A stretch of DNA of 64,000 nucleotides from Marinicella meishanensis. GTDB taxonomy: Bacteria > Pseudomonadota > Gammaproteobacteria > Xanthomonadales > Marinicellaceae. Within the stretch, counting starts at the first letter, position 1, and each line of letters starts with the position of its first letter. This document shows, piece by piece, positions 4,271 to 51,458 of this stretch. Position numbers and translations under genes: made by a program. The stretch covers positions 62,001 to 126,000 of the forward strand of contig NZ_JAIOUV010000003.1 of assembly GCF_019931145.1 (NCBI RefSeq), written 5' to 3'. The notes under the pieces were generated by a model. It worked only from the letters and a program-made list of their open reading frames with translations, was not told where the DNA came from and did no database searches.

Positions 4271-7200
4271 TCAACGACGCAGCTGTTGGCGGTATGCCGC
4301 CACAGCCAGCATCAACAGGGCCATCAACAACAACATCCATTGACTCAAGGTGGGGACCCGGATGGCCGATGAAATCGGCCCTTCGGTGTCCACCGTTTCG
4401 GTGTCAATTTCAGGGTCGGTGATGGTTTCATCCGACACCGCTTGGGCCACGTTGACCACTTGGCCATTGTCGACATCAGACTGTTGTACCACAAAAGTCC
4501 CGACCAAGGTACAGGTGCCGCCCACCAGCAGCACCGCACAACTGGTGTTGTTGGGGGTGATCATGTTGTCAGTCACCACCACATTGTTCAAGGTGACGTT
4601 ACCGACGTTGGTGGCCACGATGGTGAAAGTCAGCGTGTCATTGATGGTCACCGTGCCCGAACCGTCTTCATCGGCATTGCTGGTCAGCGATTTGTCGATG
4701 CTCAGGGCCGGATTGGTCGACAGCGGTGTGTTGATCGTGTCTTGAACTGGTGGGGTTTCATCAGAATCTGCCGTACCGGTGTTGCTGATCTGACCGGCAT
4801 TGACATCCGCTTGTTGCACCACATAGGTTCCGGTTAAGGAGCAAGTGGCCGCCGGAGCCAAAGTGACACAGGTGGTGTTGTTCGGGGTGATCAGGGTGTC
4901 GGTCACCGTGACATTATTCAACGTGATGTTACCGGTGTTGGTGGCCACCACGGTGTAAGTCAGGGTGTCGTTCAAACTGATGGTGCCAGAACCATCTTCA
5001 TCGGCATTGTTGGTCAAAGTTTTGACCACGTCCAAACCGGGATTGCCCACCACCGGAGTCACCAAGGTGTCGGTTTCAGGTCCGGTTTCATTGGAGTTGC
5101 CGGTGCCGGTGTTGTTGATCGATCCGTTGAGGATGTCGGCTGCGGTGACCACATAGGTGCCGACTAACACACAGGTGCCGCCGACGGCAACGGTGCCACA
5201 ATTGATGGTGTTGGGGGTGATCATGGGGTCAGAGGTGGACACATTGTTCAACGGGATGTTACCGGTGTTGGTGGTGGTAATGGTGAAGGTCAGGGTGTCA
5301 TTCTCAGTGATGGTGCTCGATCCGTCTTCATCGGCATTGCCGGTCAGGGCTTTGCTGACAATCAAGGCCGGAGAGCCCACCACCGGCGTCACCAAGACGT
5401 CATTGGCCGGTGGCGTCTCATCTGAATCGCCGGTACCGGTGTTGGTGATGCTGCCATTGGTGACATCGGCTGCGGTGACCACATAGGTGCCGACCAACAC
5501 ACAAGTGCCAGCCGGTGGCACGGTGCCACAGTTGATGGTGTTGGGGGAAATCATCGGATCTGAGGTGGTCATGTTGTTCAACGGAATGTTACCACTGTTG
5601 GTTGAGGTCACGGTGAAGGTCAGGGTGTCGCCCTCGGTCACGGTGCCTGAACCGTCTTCATCGGCGTTGTTGGTCAAGGCTTTGACCACGGTCAAATCAG
5701 GCGAACCGACGGTCGGCGTGATCAGGGTGTCGGTCACGGGTGGGGTCTCATCAGAATCGCCGGTACCTGTGTTCGAGATCGAACCGTTGGTGATGTCGGC
5801 CGCGGTGACCGCATAAGTCCCAACCAACACGCAAGTGCCACCAACTGGCACAGTACCGCAGTTGATGGTGTTCGGCGTGATCATGGGGTCAGAGGTGGAC
5901 ACGTTGTTCAACGGGATGTTACCGGTGTTGGTGGTGGTGATGGTGAAGGTCAGGGTGTCATTTTCGGTGATGGTGCCCGAACCGTCTTCATCGGCGTTGT
6001 TGGTCAAGGCTTTGGCCACAGTCAGCGCCGGAGATGGCAAGACTGGGGTCACCACCACGTCATCTACGGGGCCTGTTTCGTCTGAGTTACCGCTGCCAGT
6101 GTTGGTGAAATTCCCAGCCAACACGTCGGCGTTGGTGACCACATAGGTACCGACCAGCACACAGGTGCCAGCAGGTGCCACCGTGCCGCAGTTGTTGCTG
6201 TTGGGTGTCAACTGGGGATCTGAGGCCGTCAGGTTGTTCAAGGGGATGTTGCCGGTGTTGGTCACGGTGATGGTGAAGGTCAGCGTGTCGCCTTCGGTCA
6301 CGGTACCCGAACCATCTTCATCGGCGTTGTTGGTCAATTGTTTGTCGGTGGTTAAAGCCGGTGAGCCCACCACAGGGGTGACAACCACATCATCCACCGG
6401 GCCGGTTTCGTCCGAGTTGCCGCTGCCGGTGTTGGTAAAATTGCCAGCCATCACATCGGCCAACGTGACCACGTAGGTGCCGACCAGCACACAGGTGCCG
6501 GCTGGTGCCACGGTGCCACAGTTGATGCTGTTGGGTATCAATTGAGGATCTGAGGCGGTCATGTTGTTCAAGGGGATGTTGCCGGTGTTGGTCACGGTGA
6601 TGGTGAAGGTCAGCGTGTCGCCCTCGGTCACGGTGCCGGAGCCGTCTTCATCGGCGTTGTTGGTCAATTGTTTGTTGGTGGTCAAAGCCGGTGAGCCAAA
6701 CACCGGGGTCATGACCACATCATCCACCGGGCCGGTTTCATCCGAAGTGCCGCTGCCGGTGTTGGTGAAATTGCCAGCCATCACATCGGCCAGCGTGACC
6801 TCGTAGGTACCGATCAGCACACAGGTGCCGGCAGGTGCCACCGTGCCGCAGTTGTTGCTGTTGGGTGTCAGTTGCGGGTCTGAGGCCGTCATGTTGTTCA
6901 GCGGAAAATCGCCGGTGTTGGTCACGGTGATGGTGAAGGTCAGGGTATCGCCTTCGGTCACGGTGCCAGAGCCGTCTTCATCGGCATTGTTGGTCAACGC
7001 CTTGGTGGTGCTCAAAGAGTTGATGGCCCGACACACCGGCAAATCGACCACCGGTGAGGTCACTTCATTGGGTTGTCCAGCAGCACCAATGGTGGCACCA
7101 TTGGCCATGAATTCGGTCACGGCTGTGGATTGACTGATGCCATTGGCCCCACCGTTGGCCACCGGCGTGCCGGTGCCGCCACTGACTGAGATGACGCCAC

Positions 7201-18992: not shown

Positions 18993-19260
18993 AGGGCCTA
19001 TTAACACTAACTGAAAGGCGACTGCTGGATCGTATTTTTCAGCCATCAAGGCATCAGTCGTGAGGTGTGGTCACTCCACATGAACGAGTGAATAACGCTG
19101 AGGGATGAAAAATACGACCCAGCCCAATGGGTTCAGACTGCAAATGCCACACCCTGCGTTGCTCATCGCTCAATTGGAATGACCAAACCACGCGATTCGC
19201 GCCTTGATTGTGACCTTTGCAGCCTGAACAGTGGTCTTTCAGTTAGTGTTAATAGGCCCT
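18993..19260. mobile_element. MITE-like element with 25-bp terminal inverted repeats
   Basis: A 268-bp non-coding element between the SLC13 permease and gpmA. Its ends, AGGGCCTATTAACACTAACT... at 18993-19017 and the exact complement at 19236-19260, are 25 bp and perfectly matched. An inner pair, GCTGGATCGTATTTTTCA (19024-19041) and TGAAAAATACGACCCAGC (19106-19123), matches 17 of 18, so the left half folds on itself. No transposase is encoded and no clear target duplication is seen. The right half (CCCTGCGTTGCTCA..., TGGAATGACCA) recurs, rearranged, at 51457-51545. Probably moved in trans by a transposase elsewhere. The rest of the 18802-19374 intergenic region shows no convincing gene. Confidence 0.8.
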
Positions 19261-49954: not shown

Positions 49955-50350
49955 ATGAATACTAAACAAGTAAAAGAATCAGTAAAAAATGCCGTATTGG
50001 CTGGTTTGGGTGTTGTTTCAATTGCCCAGAAAGAAGCTGCCAAAGTTTACGGTAACGTTTCAAAAGAAGCCAACAAGCTGTATGGCAACTTGCTGAAAGA
50101 AGGTCAGTCTTTGGAAAAGAAATCCAAAAAATCTGTTGATGAGTTGACCAAGAAAACCGAAGGTAAATTGAACAACATCAAAACTTTGGCCAGCAAGCAA
50201 TTCAGCAAAATTGAGTCTGTTTTTGAAGGCAAAGTTGAAAGCGCTTTGAACAAGTTGGACATCCCAACTGCAGAAGACCTGAAAGGTTTGACCAAGCGTG
50301 TTGATACTTTGATCAAAGAAATCAAAAAAATTGAAAAGAAAGCCGCTTAA
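49955..50350 (+). CDS. phasin-like / PhaF-type granule-associated protein
   Basis: A 131-residue lysine-rich helical protein. The N-terminal part (VKNAVLAGLGVVSIAQKEAAKVYGN) has the amphipathic pattern of the poly(hydroxyalkanoate) granule-associated phasin family, followed by a long coiled coil (KKSKKSVDELTKKTEGKLNNIK) and LTKRVDTLIKEIKKIEKKAA at the end. Phasins coat storage granules and influence DNA segregation. Start at the ATG at 49955, with GAGG 8 nt upstream. No PHA synthase gene is nearby, so a granule role is unproven. A terminator and then a repeat array follow. Confidence 0.72.
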   Translation: MNTKQVKESVKNAVLAGLGVVSIAQKEAAKVYGNVSKEANKLYGNLLKEGQSLEKKSKKSVDELTKKTEGKLNNIKTLASKQFSKIESVFEGKVESALNKLDIPTAEDLKGLTKRVDTLIKEIKKIEKKAA

Positions 50351-50393
50351 TACCGCTTCATTTTCAATCACGAGTTTGTACCTCGTCCCCCAG

Positions 50394-50424
50394 CAGCAGC
50401 CAAGGAAGGTTGCTGTTTTTATTT
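50394..50424 (+). terminator. Rho-independent terminator after phasin-like gene
   Basis: An 8-bp stem CAGCAGCC / GGTTGCTG with one G-T pair, a 6-nt loop and TTTTTATTT. Confidence 0.75.
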
Positions 50425-50434
50425 GAGGCTTTGT

Positions 50435-51041
50435 GAGACCTTTGGTTGGTTTCGTGGATCATGTCAAAAAGCCTCAAAACGACCTGCTTGGCGTTGGAAA
50501 ACTTGCCAATGACGGCGCATTGGACTGCGTTTCCCGCCTTAATCAGTCCGTTTTCAGATCTTTTTGCCAAAGACCCAGAAACCAACCAAAGGTCTCGAGG
50601 TTGGTTTCGTGGATCATGTCAAAAAGCCTTAAAATTCCCTGCTTGGCGTTTGAAAACTGACGGCGCATTGGACTGCGTTTCCCGCCTTAATCAGTCCGTT
50701 TTCAGATCTTTTTGCCAAAGACCCAGAAACCAACCAAAGGTCTCGAGGTTGGTTTCGTGGATCATGTCAAAAAGCCTTAAAATTCCCTGCTTGGCGTTTG
50801 AAAACTGACGGCGCATTGGACTGCGTTTCCCGCCTTAATCAGTCCGTTTTCAGATCTTTTTGCCAAAGACCCAGAAACCAACCAAAGGTCTCGAGGTTGG
50901 TTTCGTGGATCATGTCTAAAAGCCTTAAAATTCCCTGCTTGGCGTTTGAAAACTGACGGCGCATTGGACTGCGTTTCCCGCCTTAATCAGTGCATTTTCA
51001 GTTCTTTTTGCCAAAGACCCAGGACCCAACCAAAGGTCTCA
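50435..51041 (+). repeat. four tandem copies of a palindromic ~148-bp repeat
   Basis: TTGGTTTCGTGGATCATGTC starts copies at about 50446, 50601, 50749 and 50897 (periods 155, 148, 148). Copies 2 and 3 look identical; copies 1 and 4 differ. The array is bounded by GAGACCTTTGGTTGGTTTC (50435-50453) and its exact complement, first at 50578-50596. Each unit nests paired stems: GGTTTC/GAAACC, CAAAAAG/CTTTTTG, GAAAAC/GTTTTC, ACTGA/TCAGT, GGCG/CGCC. It would therefore fold as one long hairpin. No transposase or recognised gene lies inside; open frames across it are read-through of the repeat. It fills the gap between the phasin-like and A-type carrier genes. Confidence 0.93.
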
Positions 51042-51075
51042 GCCTTGTTGGTCCACAATCCCGTTAAAGAATGCC

Positions 51076-51104
51076 TTGAAAAATCGCTGCATTTACCGCA
51101 TATT
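51076..51104 (+). promoter_or_regulatory. promoter candidate for A-type carrier gene
   Basis: -35 TTGAAA (51076-51081), a 17-bp spacer and -10 CATATT (51099-51104), just after the repeat array and 28 nt before the ATG. Confidence 0.4.
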
Positions 51105-51131
51105 GTCAGCAAGTCAATTGAGCCATTTATC

Positions 51132-51458
51132 ATGTCCTTACAACTCACCCAACAAGCCGCTGACCGCATCTTGCATTTTTTGTCTTTGGATGAGAAGGCC
51201 ATGGGTTTTCGGGTGTCGGTGAAGAAAATGGGTTGTTCCGGTTGGGGTTACGAGGTCGAGCTGGCCCACGAAGTCAAAGCCGATGAAATGACCATGGAAG
51301 ACAAAGGCGTGACATTAATTGTACCCCAAGACGCTTTGGACAAGGTGGATGGCACGGTGATCGATTACGAACGCCAAGGCATCAATCAAATCTTTGTCTA
51401 CAGAAATCCCAACGCCACCGGTTCGTGTGGTTGTGGCGAAAGCTTCACCACCAACTAG
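51132..51458 (+). CDS. A-type iron-sulfur carrier protein (IscA/SufA/ErpA-like)
   Basis: A 108-residue HesB/IscA-family protein that carries and hands on Fe-S clusters. The three cluster cysteines are in KKMGCSGWGYEVEL and GSCGCGESF (one upstream, two at the C-terminus). The start MSLQLTQQAADRIL matches the family; the frame runs back into the repeat array but that part is not coding. It is a lone copy, without iscSU or suf genes, and cannot be assigned among IscA, SufA or ErpA. Its TAG stop includes the first two bases of a MITE-like terminus at 51457. Convergent with the FimT/GspH gene. Confidence 0.93.
   Translation: MSLQLTQQAADRILHFLSLDEKAMGFRVSVKKMGCSGWGYEVELAHEVKADEMTMEDKGVTLIVPQDALDKVDGTVIDYERQGINQIFVYRNPNATGSCGCGESFTTN

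Follow-up and report, generated by a model that had tools for sequence, protein, structure and literature searches.

The locus considered here raises the question of why one non-coding repeat should stand four times in direct succession behind a phasin gene of Marinicella meishanensis, and whether the hairpin that it can form is of any use to the host. It lies in a 64-kb stretch of DNA (64,000 nucleotides, hereafter the window), for which a sequence-only reading had proposed either a tandemly amplified MITE or a structured-RNA array. The first of these proposals was supported by dispersed copies with fixed ends, by 5-bp target duplications and by IS5-family elements of the genus that share the ends (see below). 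The four repeats are thus probably the product of local tandem amplification of a single copy of an IS5-type MITE, an imperfect hairpin of about 160 bp without any gene, whose arm symmetry would come largely from template switching and which needs no host function.

Organization of the array and its genomic site

The array comprised four head-to-tail units at positions 50435-51040 of the window (Table 1); position 51041, counted as its last in the sequence-only reading, belongs to the flank. Tandem Repeats Finder gave a period of 148, 4.0 copies and 95% matches at 50444-51040, in agreement with the copy sequences and with the four copies originally recognized; the proposed unit of about 148 bp describes copies 2 to 4 but not the longer copy 1. 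Two 7-bp deletions, one at the left end and the other beside the loop, were common to copies 2, 3 and 4. Sequence comparison confirmed that copies 2 and 3 are identical and that copies 1 and 4 have diverged, copy 1 differing from copy 2 by 5 substitutions and 14 gap columns and from copy 4 by 11 substitutions and 14 gap columns. At the unit junctions GGTCTC was directly followed by GAG, with zero spacer. The perfect 19-bp inverted repeat first assigned to the outer boundary of the array is that of copy 1 alone, where 50435-50453 pairs with 50578-50596; the outermost array boundary (50434/51041) had a perfect inverted repeat of 16 bp, and copies 2 to 4 taken singly had terminal inverted repeats of just 3 bp.

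Table 1 Features at the array locus, in window coordinates (R1, covariance model described below)
Feature	Position	Strand	Remarks
Phasin gene, upstream of array	49958..50350	+	Pfam PF05597 Phasin, E 7.2e-23
Terminator-like hairpin of phasin gene	50392..50417	+	Pattern scan; 1 found vs 1.6 mean in shuffles, alone not significant
Copy 1	50435..50596	+	Complete 162-bp element; perfect 19-bp terminal inverted repeats; R1 163.4 bits, E 5.6e-33 (in window), model positions 1-160
Copy 2	50597..50744	+	148 bp; lacks 7 bp of left terminal repeat and 7 bp of left side of apical hairpin; R1 99.4 bits
Copy 3	50745..50892	+	148 bp; sequence identical to copy 2; R1 match
Copy 4	50893..51040	+	148 bp; 6 substitutions from copies 2 and 3; R1 90.6 bits
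Fe-S_biosyn gene (iron-sulphur cluster assembly, IscA/ErpA-like), downstream of array	51132..51458	+	Pfam PF01521, E 2.5e-15

RNA folding of one 148-bp unit gave -43.7 kcal/mol for the plus strand (z -2.51, 4 of 200 shuffles as good) and -47.7 kcal/mol for the minus strand (z -2.98, 0 of 200 shuffles as good). The predicted fold of this unit is hairpin-like, as had been proposed for every copy, but the two 7-bp deletions partly spoil it. The array was rejected as a CRISPR, which would have short repeats and unique spacers, since its 148-bp units abut without spacers. REP/BIME elements are alternating palindromes of 20-40 bp, and this identity was also rejected, the units being 162 or 148 bp long and all in one orientation; on both counts the sequence-only reading was right. 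Elsewhere in the window, a tandem repeat with a period of 330 and 6.3 copies (4917-7004) is probably a repeat protein gene, and a weak R1 match on the plus strand (19131-19229, 20 bits, E 0.02) is probably due to chance. The 64-kb window held no tRNA genes.

A phasin match (E <= 0.001) was found in all 18 genomes of the genus, and in all seven relatives inspected the phasin gene was followed by the same stem with its run of T; the array starts 18 bp past this terminator-like hairpin. Among the 17 other genus genomes, 12 likewise had the Fe-S gene behind the phasin gene, and the other five loci had no match (the query was approximate, and the places agree). By R1, the element was present at 2 of the 18 phasin loci, that of M. 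meishanensis and that of genome G012, and a truncated relative was seen by eye at the corresponding place in G009. Since the G012 copy belongs to another subfamily and carries a loop insertion, we take it to have inserted independently behind this terminator. Three genomes (G007, G010 and G017) presented an empty site, with the same phasin terminator and no element ahead of the Fe-S gene.

A dispersed family with IS5-type ends

R1, a covariance model built from 14 full Marinicella copies, was used together with blastn to follow the element beyond the array. In its own genome blastn revealed no close form outside the array locus, and R1 located two decayed copies (C9:375102-375254, E 3.7e-21; C13:226106-226279, E 7.5e-10), the remaining matches being weak (E 0.2-0.7) or opposite-strand duplicates. 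Ten of the 33 genomes of the GTDB family, the own one included, had a blastn match; R1 at E <= 0.01 had matches in 27 of the 33 and none in the other six. In the order, 39 of 200 genomes matched at E <= 1e-6, including 12 that fall outside the family, and in a class sample 41 of 369 Gammaproteobacteria genomes and 36 of 272 genera did so, own included. Whole-genome match numbers may count a palindromic copy on both strands and are unfit as copy counts. An exact core-pattern search found 16 stretches, in contigs named Marinicella (e.g., M. pacifica, M. gelatinilytica) and in several MAGs. No match was obtained for the window array or for one GGAACC-type copy among plasmid and phage records, for one GGGCACC-type copy among plasmid records, or, as exact matches, for two core patterns in viral contigs; the GGAACC-type copy also had 0 matches in 20,395 E. 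coli records. The sequence-only reading had named a unit found nowhere else as evidence against itself: this holds for the close, blastn-level form, restricted to one locus of its own genome, but not for the family, whose copies occur across the class.

We inspected 100 loci from the best of the matches listed in related genomes, a sample that leans to well-kept copies. They contained 101 copies: one of 155 bp, four of 158, 53 of 159, 41 of 160 and two of 162. GAG...CTC ends were present in 92 of the 101, and 54 of these 92 were flanked by an exact 5-bp target duplication, compared with 1.9 when flanks were shuffled; no other duplication length stood out among the 92. As expected of MITEs, the elements were short (155-162 bp) and non-coding, had terminal inverted repeats, and occurred as dispersed copies with target duplications. 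The window array itself showed no target duplication (flanks TTTGT and AGCCT), so the case for its own transposition comes from these relatives.

The ends were related to those of an autonomous element through IS5-family elements in congeners. IS elements with CTCTGCATAA ends exist, and two IS of the genus had the same ends as the MITE together with a 5-bp duplication: L052 (AATAC) and L046 (TAATT), the latter inserted inside a MITE copy. The duplications at L057 were alike in four of five bases, and L062 had none. GAGACC-type MITEs and these two IS copies agreed in duplication size (5 bp in both), as expected of IS5-type mobility. Transposases from L046 and L047 matched the NCBIfam IS5 family NF033581 with 271.8 and 225.6 bits (cut-off 140). 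PF01609, on which the transposase search relied, had matches in 8 of 18 genus genomes and none in the own genome, which may therefore be unable to move the element now. The element had no transposase gene, and its core was absent from the 29 IS loci searched, save in the MITE copy interrupted by an IS; derivation of the core from an IS was rejected, the best core-profile match in IS loci outside the L046 MITE having E 0.44.

Variants of the element were also observed. Four copies (L227 at 1971-2197, L024, L021 and L249) carried about 66-140 extra bp of at least two unrelated kinds in the apical loop, and L249, from genome G024, was 69 bp longer than its ortholog L242 in G029. Two further G024 copies (L255 and L261) represented a subfamily with the ends GAGACTGTGAAAG and CTTTCACAGTCTC and the same plan.

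From these data a history of the array can be proposed. The element would have been moved in trans by an IS5-family transposase, now undetectable in its own genome, and would have landed behind the phasin terminator. A head-to-tail duplicate would then have arisen and been shortened at its left end and on one side of the loop hairpin; a 30-bp palindrome would result where two full ends meet, a likely reason for the 7-bp loss at the left end. The shortened unit would have been duplicated again, by recombination or slippage, leaving copies 2 and 3 as the youngest.

Another way to build such an array is repeated transposition of the element beside itself. The superfamily does offer examples of insertion next to a resident copy: genome G032 had six neighbouring pairs of elements spaced by 3-4 bp that resemble a shared target site (CTAG, CTGG, CTAA, TAG, CTAG and TTAG). 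The copies in the window, however, abut without any such spacer, and the deletions common to copies 2 to 4, together with the identity of copies 2 and 3, point to the multiplication of one shortened ancestor unit, so that we regard this origin as unlikely; an insertion that later lost its spacer could still account for the first duplication alone. Among the 100 related loci, taken from the best of the matches listed, none was seen to have two copies directly adjoining each other. A sequencing or assembly artefact is most improbable. Near-identical hairpins in an array do make assembly difficult, and in one related draft genome copy flanks look recombined, with one copy between mirror-image flanks (see below), but copies 1, 2 and 4 differ from each other and the array lies inside a 515-kb contig with unique flanks.

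To local amplification of one MITE copy can be added a wider history of its family. Sixty loci picked with R1 from 40 other genomes of the class yielded 61 elements, each 155-162 bp long. A profile built from the 14 Marinicella copies on sequence alone matched 59 of the 60 loci at E <= 1e-3 (0 of 60 when shuffled) and its core alone matched 52 (again 0 of 60), figures that, for loci chosen with R1, indicate homology within the set and not a rate. Among the 59 class elements with flanks, GGAACC-type ends (n=32) went with 4-bp duplications in 15 cases (3.75 when shuffled) and 5-bp ones in none; GAGACC-type ends (n=15 in this set) with 5-bp duplications in three (0.3 when shuffled) and 4-bp ones in none; and GGGCACC-type ends (n=6) with 4-bp duplications in three (0.95 when shuffled). 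Other end types (n=6) had one 4-bp duplication. The GGAACC and GGGCACC types presumably belong to other IS5 groups. By these counts, homologous cores go with different ends and different duplication lengths.

MITEs are usually viewed as short-lived and as derived by deletion from a single insertion sequence. This view does not accommodate a non-coding element in which length and a recognisable core persist across a bacterial class while ends and duplication vary, and the purpose of such a core is then in question. As a tentative answer, possible though not probable, the 160-bp hairpin would be one very old selfish element in which the core and not the ends is inherited (roughly one of every nine gammaproteobacterial genomes sampled has this core) and which different IS5 lineages serve, as the end types with 5-bp and 4-bp duplications would indicate; the core would aid its spread, perhaps as a minus-strand single-stranded hairpin, and the arms would be matched by template switching.

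Covariation and proposed template switching in the hairpin arms

Absence of covariation between the paired blocks had been named beforehand as evidence against the sequence-only reading, and covariation was present. In the 14 copies, changes on both sides affected 28 of 57 pairs (85 cells), with a score of 0.315 against 0.128 in shuffles, none of 500 of which scored as high; further pair types alone were less striking (19 of 500 shuffles). The changes could be read as the mark of selection for the hairpin of a structured RNA, the array being a multi-copy RNA locus, and the conservation of the core over the class would agree with this. Other results spoke against it. In 99 distinct copies, Watson-Crick cells were 1.24 times the shuffled number, and G-T was as depleted on the modelled strand as other mismatches (ratios of 0.28 for both, or 0.44 for G-T counting one constantly G-T pair; C-A, 0.61). 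There was no orientation bias to flanking genes: with crude ORFs, 22 of 91 scored copies were codirectional, 21 counter-directional, 35 divergent and 13 convergent (10 were unscored). A pattern scan found no promoter-like match inside the array. Rfam had 0 matches in the window at gathering scores and 0 at E <= 1 in 50350-51120, and a known Rfam family was rejected as its identity. Copies 2 to 4, moreover, lack one side of the apical hairpin, and part of the symmetric changes were templated (see below). A structured-RNA array, the second of the original proposals, is therefore not the best reading, and we consider it quite unlikely.

The templated changes came from comparison of individual copies. 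In L184 (G024) the near-apex right arm has CGAA where the ortholog L213 (G029) has ACTCA, a change that makes it match the unchanged left arm as an exact reverse complement; L182, an otherwise identical copy in the same genome as L184, has the old form. In the L134 copy at 1019-1177 (G018) the right arm is unchanged and a left-arm stretch has given way to the exact reverse complement of that right arm, with the old form kept in L136 and L146. An arm rewritten as the exact reverse complement of its partner is the pattern of template switching. A systematic scan for templated clusters, covering 1263 close pairs among 139 distinct elements, yielded 89 pair results that came from seven copies, of which the two above are counted as clean, the others resting on distant relatives or three-position end differences; both were recognised after looking, and no rate is given. 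Three ortholog pairs matched on both flanks were found among 51 copies, with one templated change, one loop insertion and one set of single changes. Along a tree, 112 double Watson-Crick changes were counted, with 64 changes to G-T and 114 to C-A, numbers from short sequences, a weakly resolved tree and an alignment fitted to the structure. The private changes of 86 copies with close relatives, all unique, comprised 32 C-A, 22 G-T, 43 other one-sided, four double mismatched and 10 double Watson-Crick changes, that is, 10 double changes from Watson-Crick to Watson-Crick (plus two shared) versus 97 one-sided changes to mismatches. The arm symmetry of the family would come mainly from DNA template switching that copies one arm onto its partner, rather than chiefly from selection on a folded RNA.

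Some copies showed other rearrangements. Between G024 and G029 the flanks of five copies (L263, L268, L274, L286 and L280) were exchanged in a chain, with target duplications kept in G024, either by recombination between copies or by misjoins in the G029 draft; the L262 copy around 1501-1659, with mirror-image flanks on both sides, is an artefact or an inversion.

Matching arms might instead reflect the selection of matched ends by each transposase lineage, with no copying between arms. At pair 7/189, TA occurred in 69 and CG in 26 of 99 copies, the end variants TTTGC and TCTGC changing jointly on both sides, and IS elements with CTCTGCATAA ends exist (see above). Covariation nevertheless continues through the inner stem to the apex, far from the transposase-bound ends, and both clear templated changes are internal, which makes this explanation doubtful.

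One observation points against template switching as the origin of the symmetry, namely the lesser depletion of C-A, which is G-U on the opposite strand and which a purely DNA-level process does not predict. In Marinicellaceae, 31 of the 42 informative pairs had more C-A than G-T (31 vs 11, sign test p 0.003); the class set gave 28 vs 18 (p 0.18), or 28 vs 16 outside the family (p 0.10), and private changes 32 vs 22, which was not significant (p about 0.2, an estimate). This wobble-like asymmetry would fit a minus-strand RNA; significant in Marinicellaceae but not in the class set or the private changes, it was not accepted as proof of one. The C-A excess may reflect some selection on a minus strand that folds, whether as single-stranded DNA or as RNA, or else a preferred direction of switching; it hints weakly at a role for a minus-strand hairpin.

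With its many near-neutral copies of one hairpin, the family allows selection and template switching to be tested copy by copy as sources of compensatory stem changes, and two clean one-step events (L184 and L134) are already visible. It also calls for caution, as strong hairpin covariation alone is no proof of a functional RNA.

Comparison with known systems

No description of the Marinicella hairpin family was found among the papers listed from the open-access literature on MITEs, IS5 and template switching. Among other long-hairpin bacterial MITEs, ERIC and Correia have a TA target duplication; by description, their ends and duplication differ from those of the Marinicella element. Like it, such MITEs are non-coding, palindromic, intergenic mobile repeats of 100-170 bp that can form hairpins (reviewed in PMC10969869). 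Coxiella QMITE1 and QMITE2, the latter of 150-190 bp, are gammaproteobacterial MITE families which, as far as the cited sections describe them, differ from the Marinicella family in that their duplications are of 2-4 or 7-11 bp and QMITE2 holds a GTAG REP; the same sections report no orthologues of QMITE1 in other genomes (PMC5896051).

Ends of this kind are also those of IS5-family insertion sequences with GAGACC ends (ISPg1, ISPg9 and ISNme1), the end of ISPg1 being GAGACCATTGCA and that of ISNme1 GAGACCTTTGCAAAA in the cited part of PMC4596501. They resemble the IS5-family elements of the genus, with GAGACCTYTGCATAA-like ends and, in the two genus IS read, a 5-bp duplication; unlike them, the Marinicella element has no transposase gene, nor is its core shared with the IS loci searched. 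BrickBuilt and other IS5-type MITEs of Porphyromonas gingivalis have in common with it the GAGACC ends and, in the sections cited, the lack of a transposase remnant (PMC4596501). BrickBuilt contains internal 23-nt minisatellites, and its likeness to other repeats is described there as confined to the ends (PMC4596501), whereas the Marinicella family keeps its core from genus to genus and its element forms a single hairpin over the entire length.

Template switching that rewrites one arm of an imperfect inverted repeat from the other has been proposed for RNA genes, with evidence for maintenance that its authors, in the part cited, call circumstantial (PMC8794818). In contrast to the quasipalindrome correction described in that part, the process proposed here would act in a high-copy transposon, whose copies can be compared one by one.
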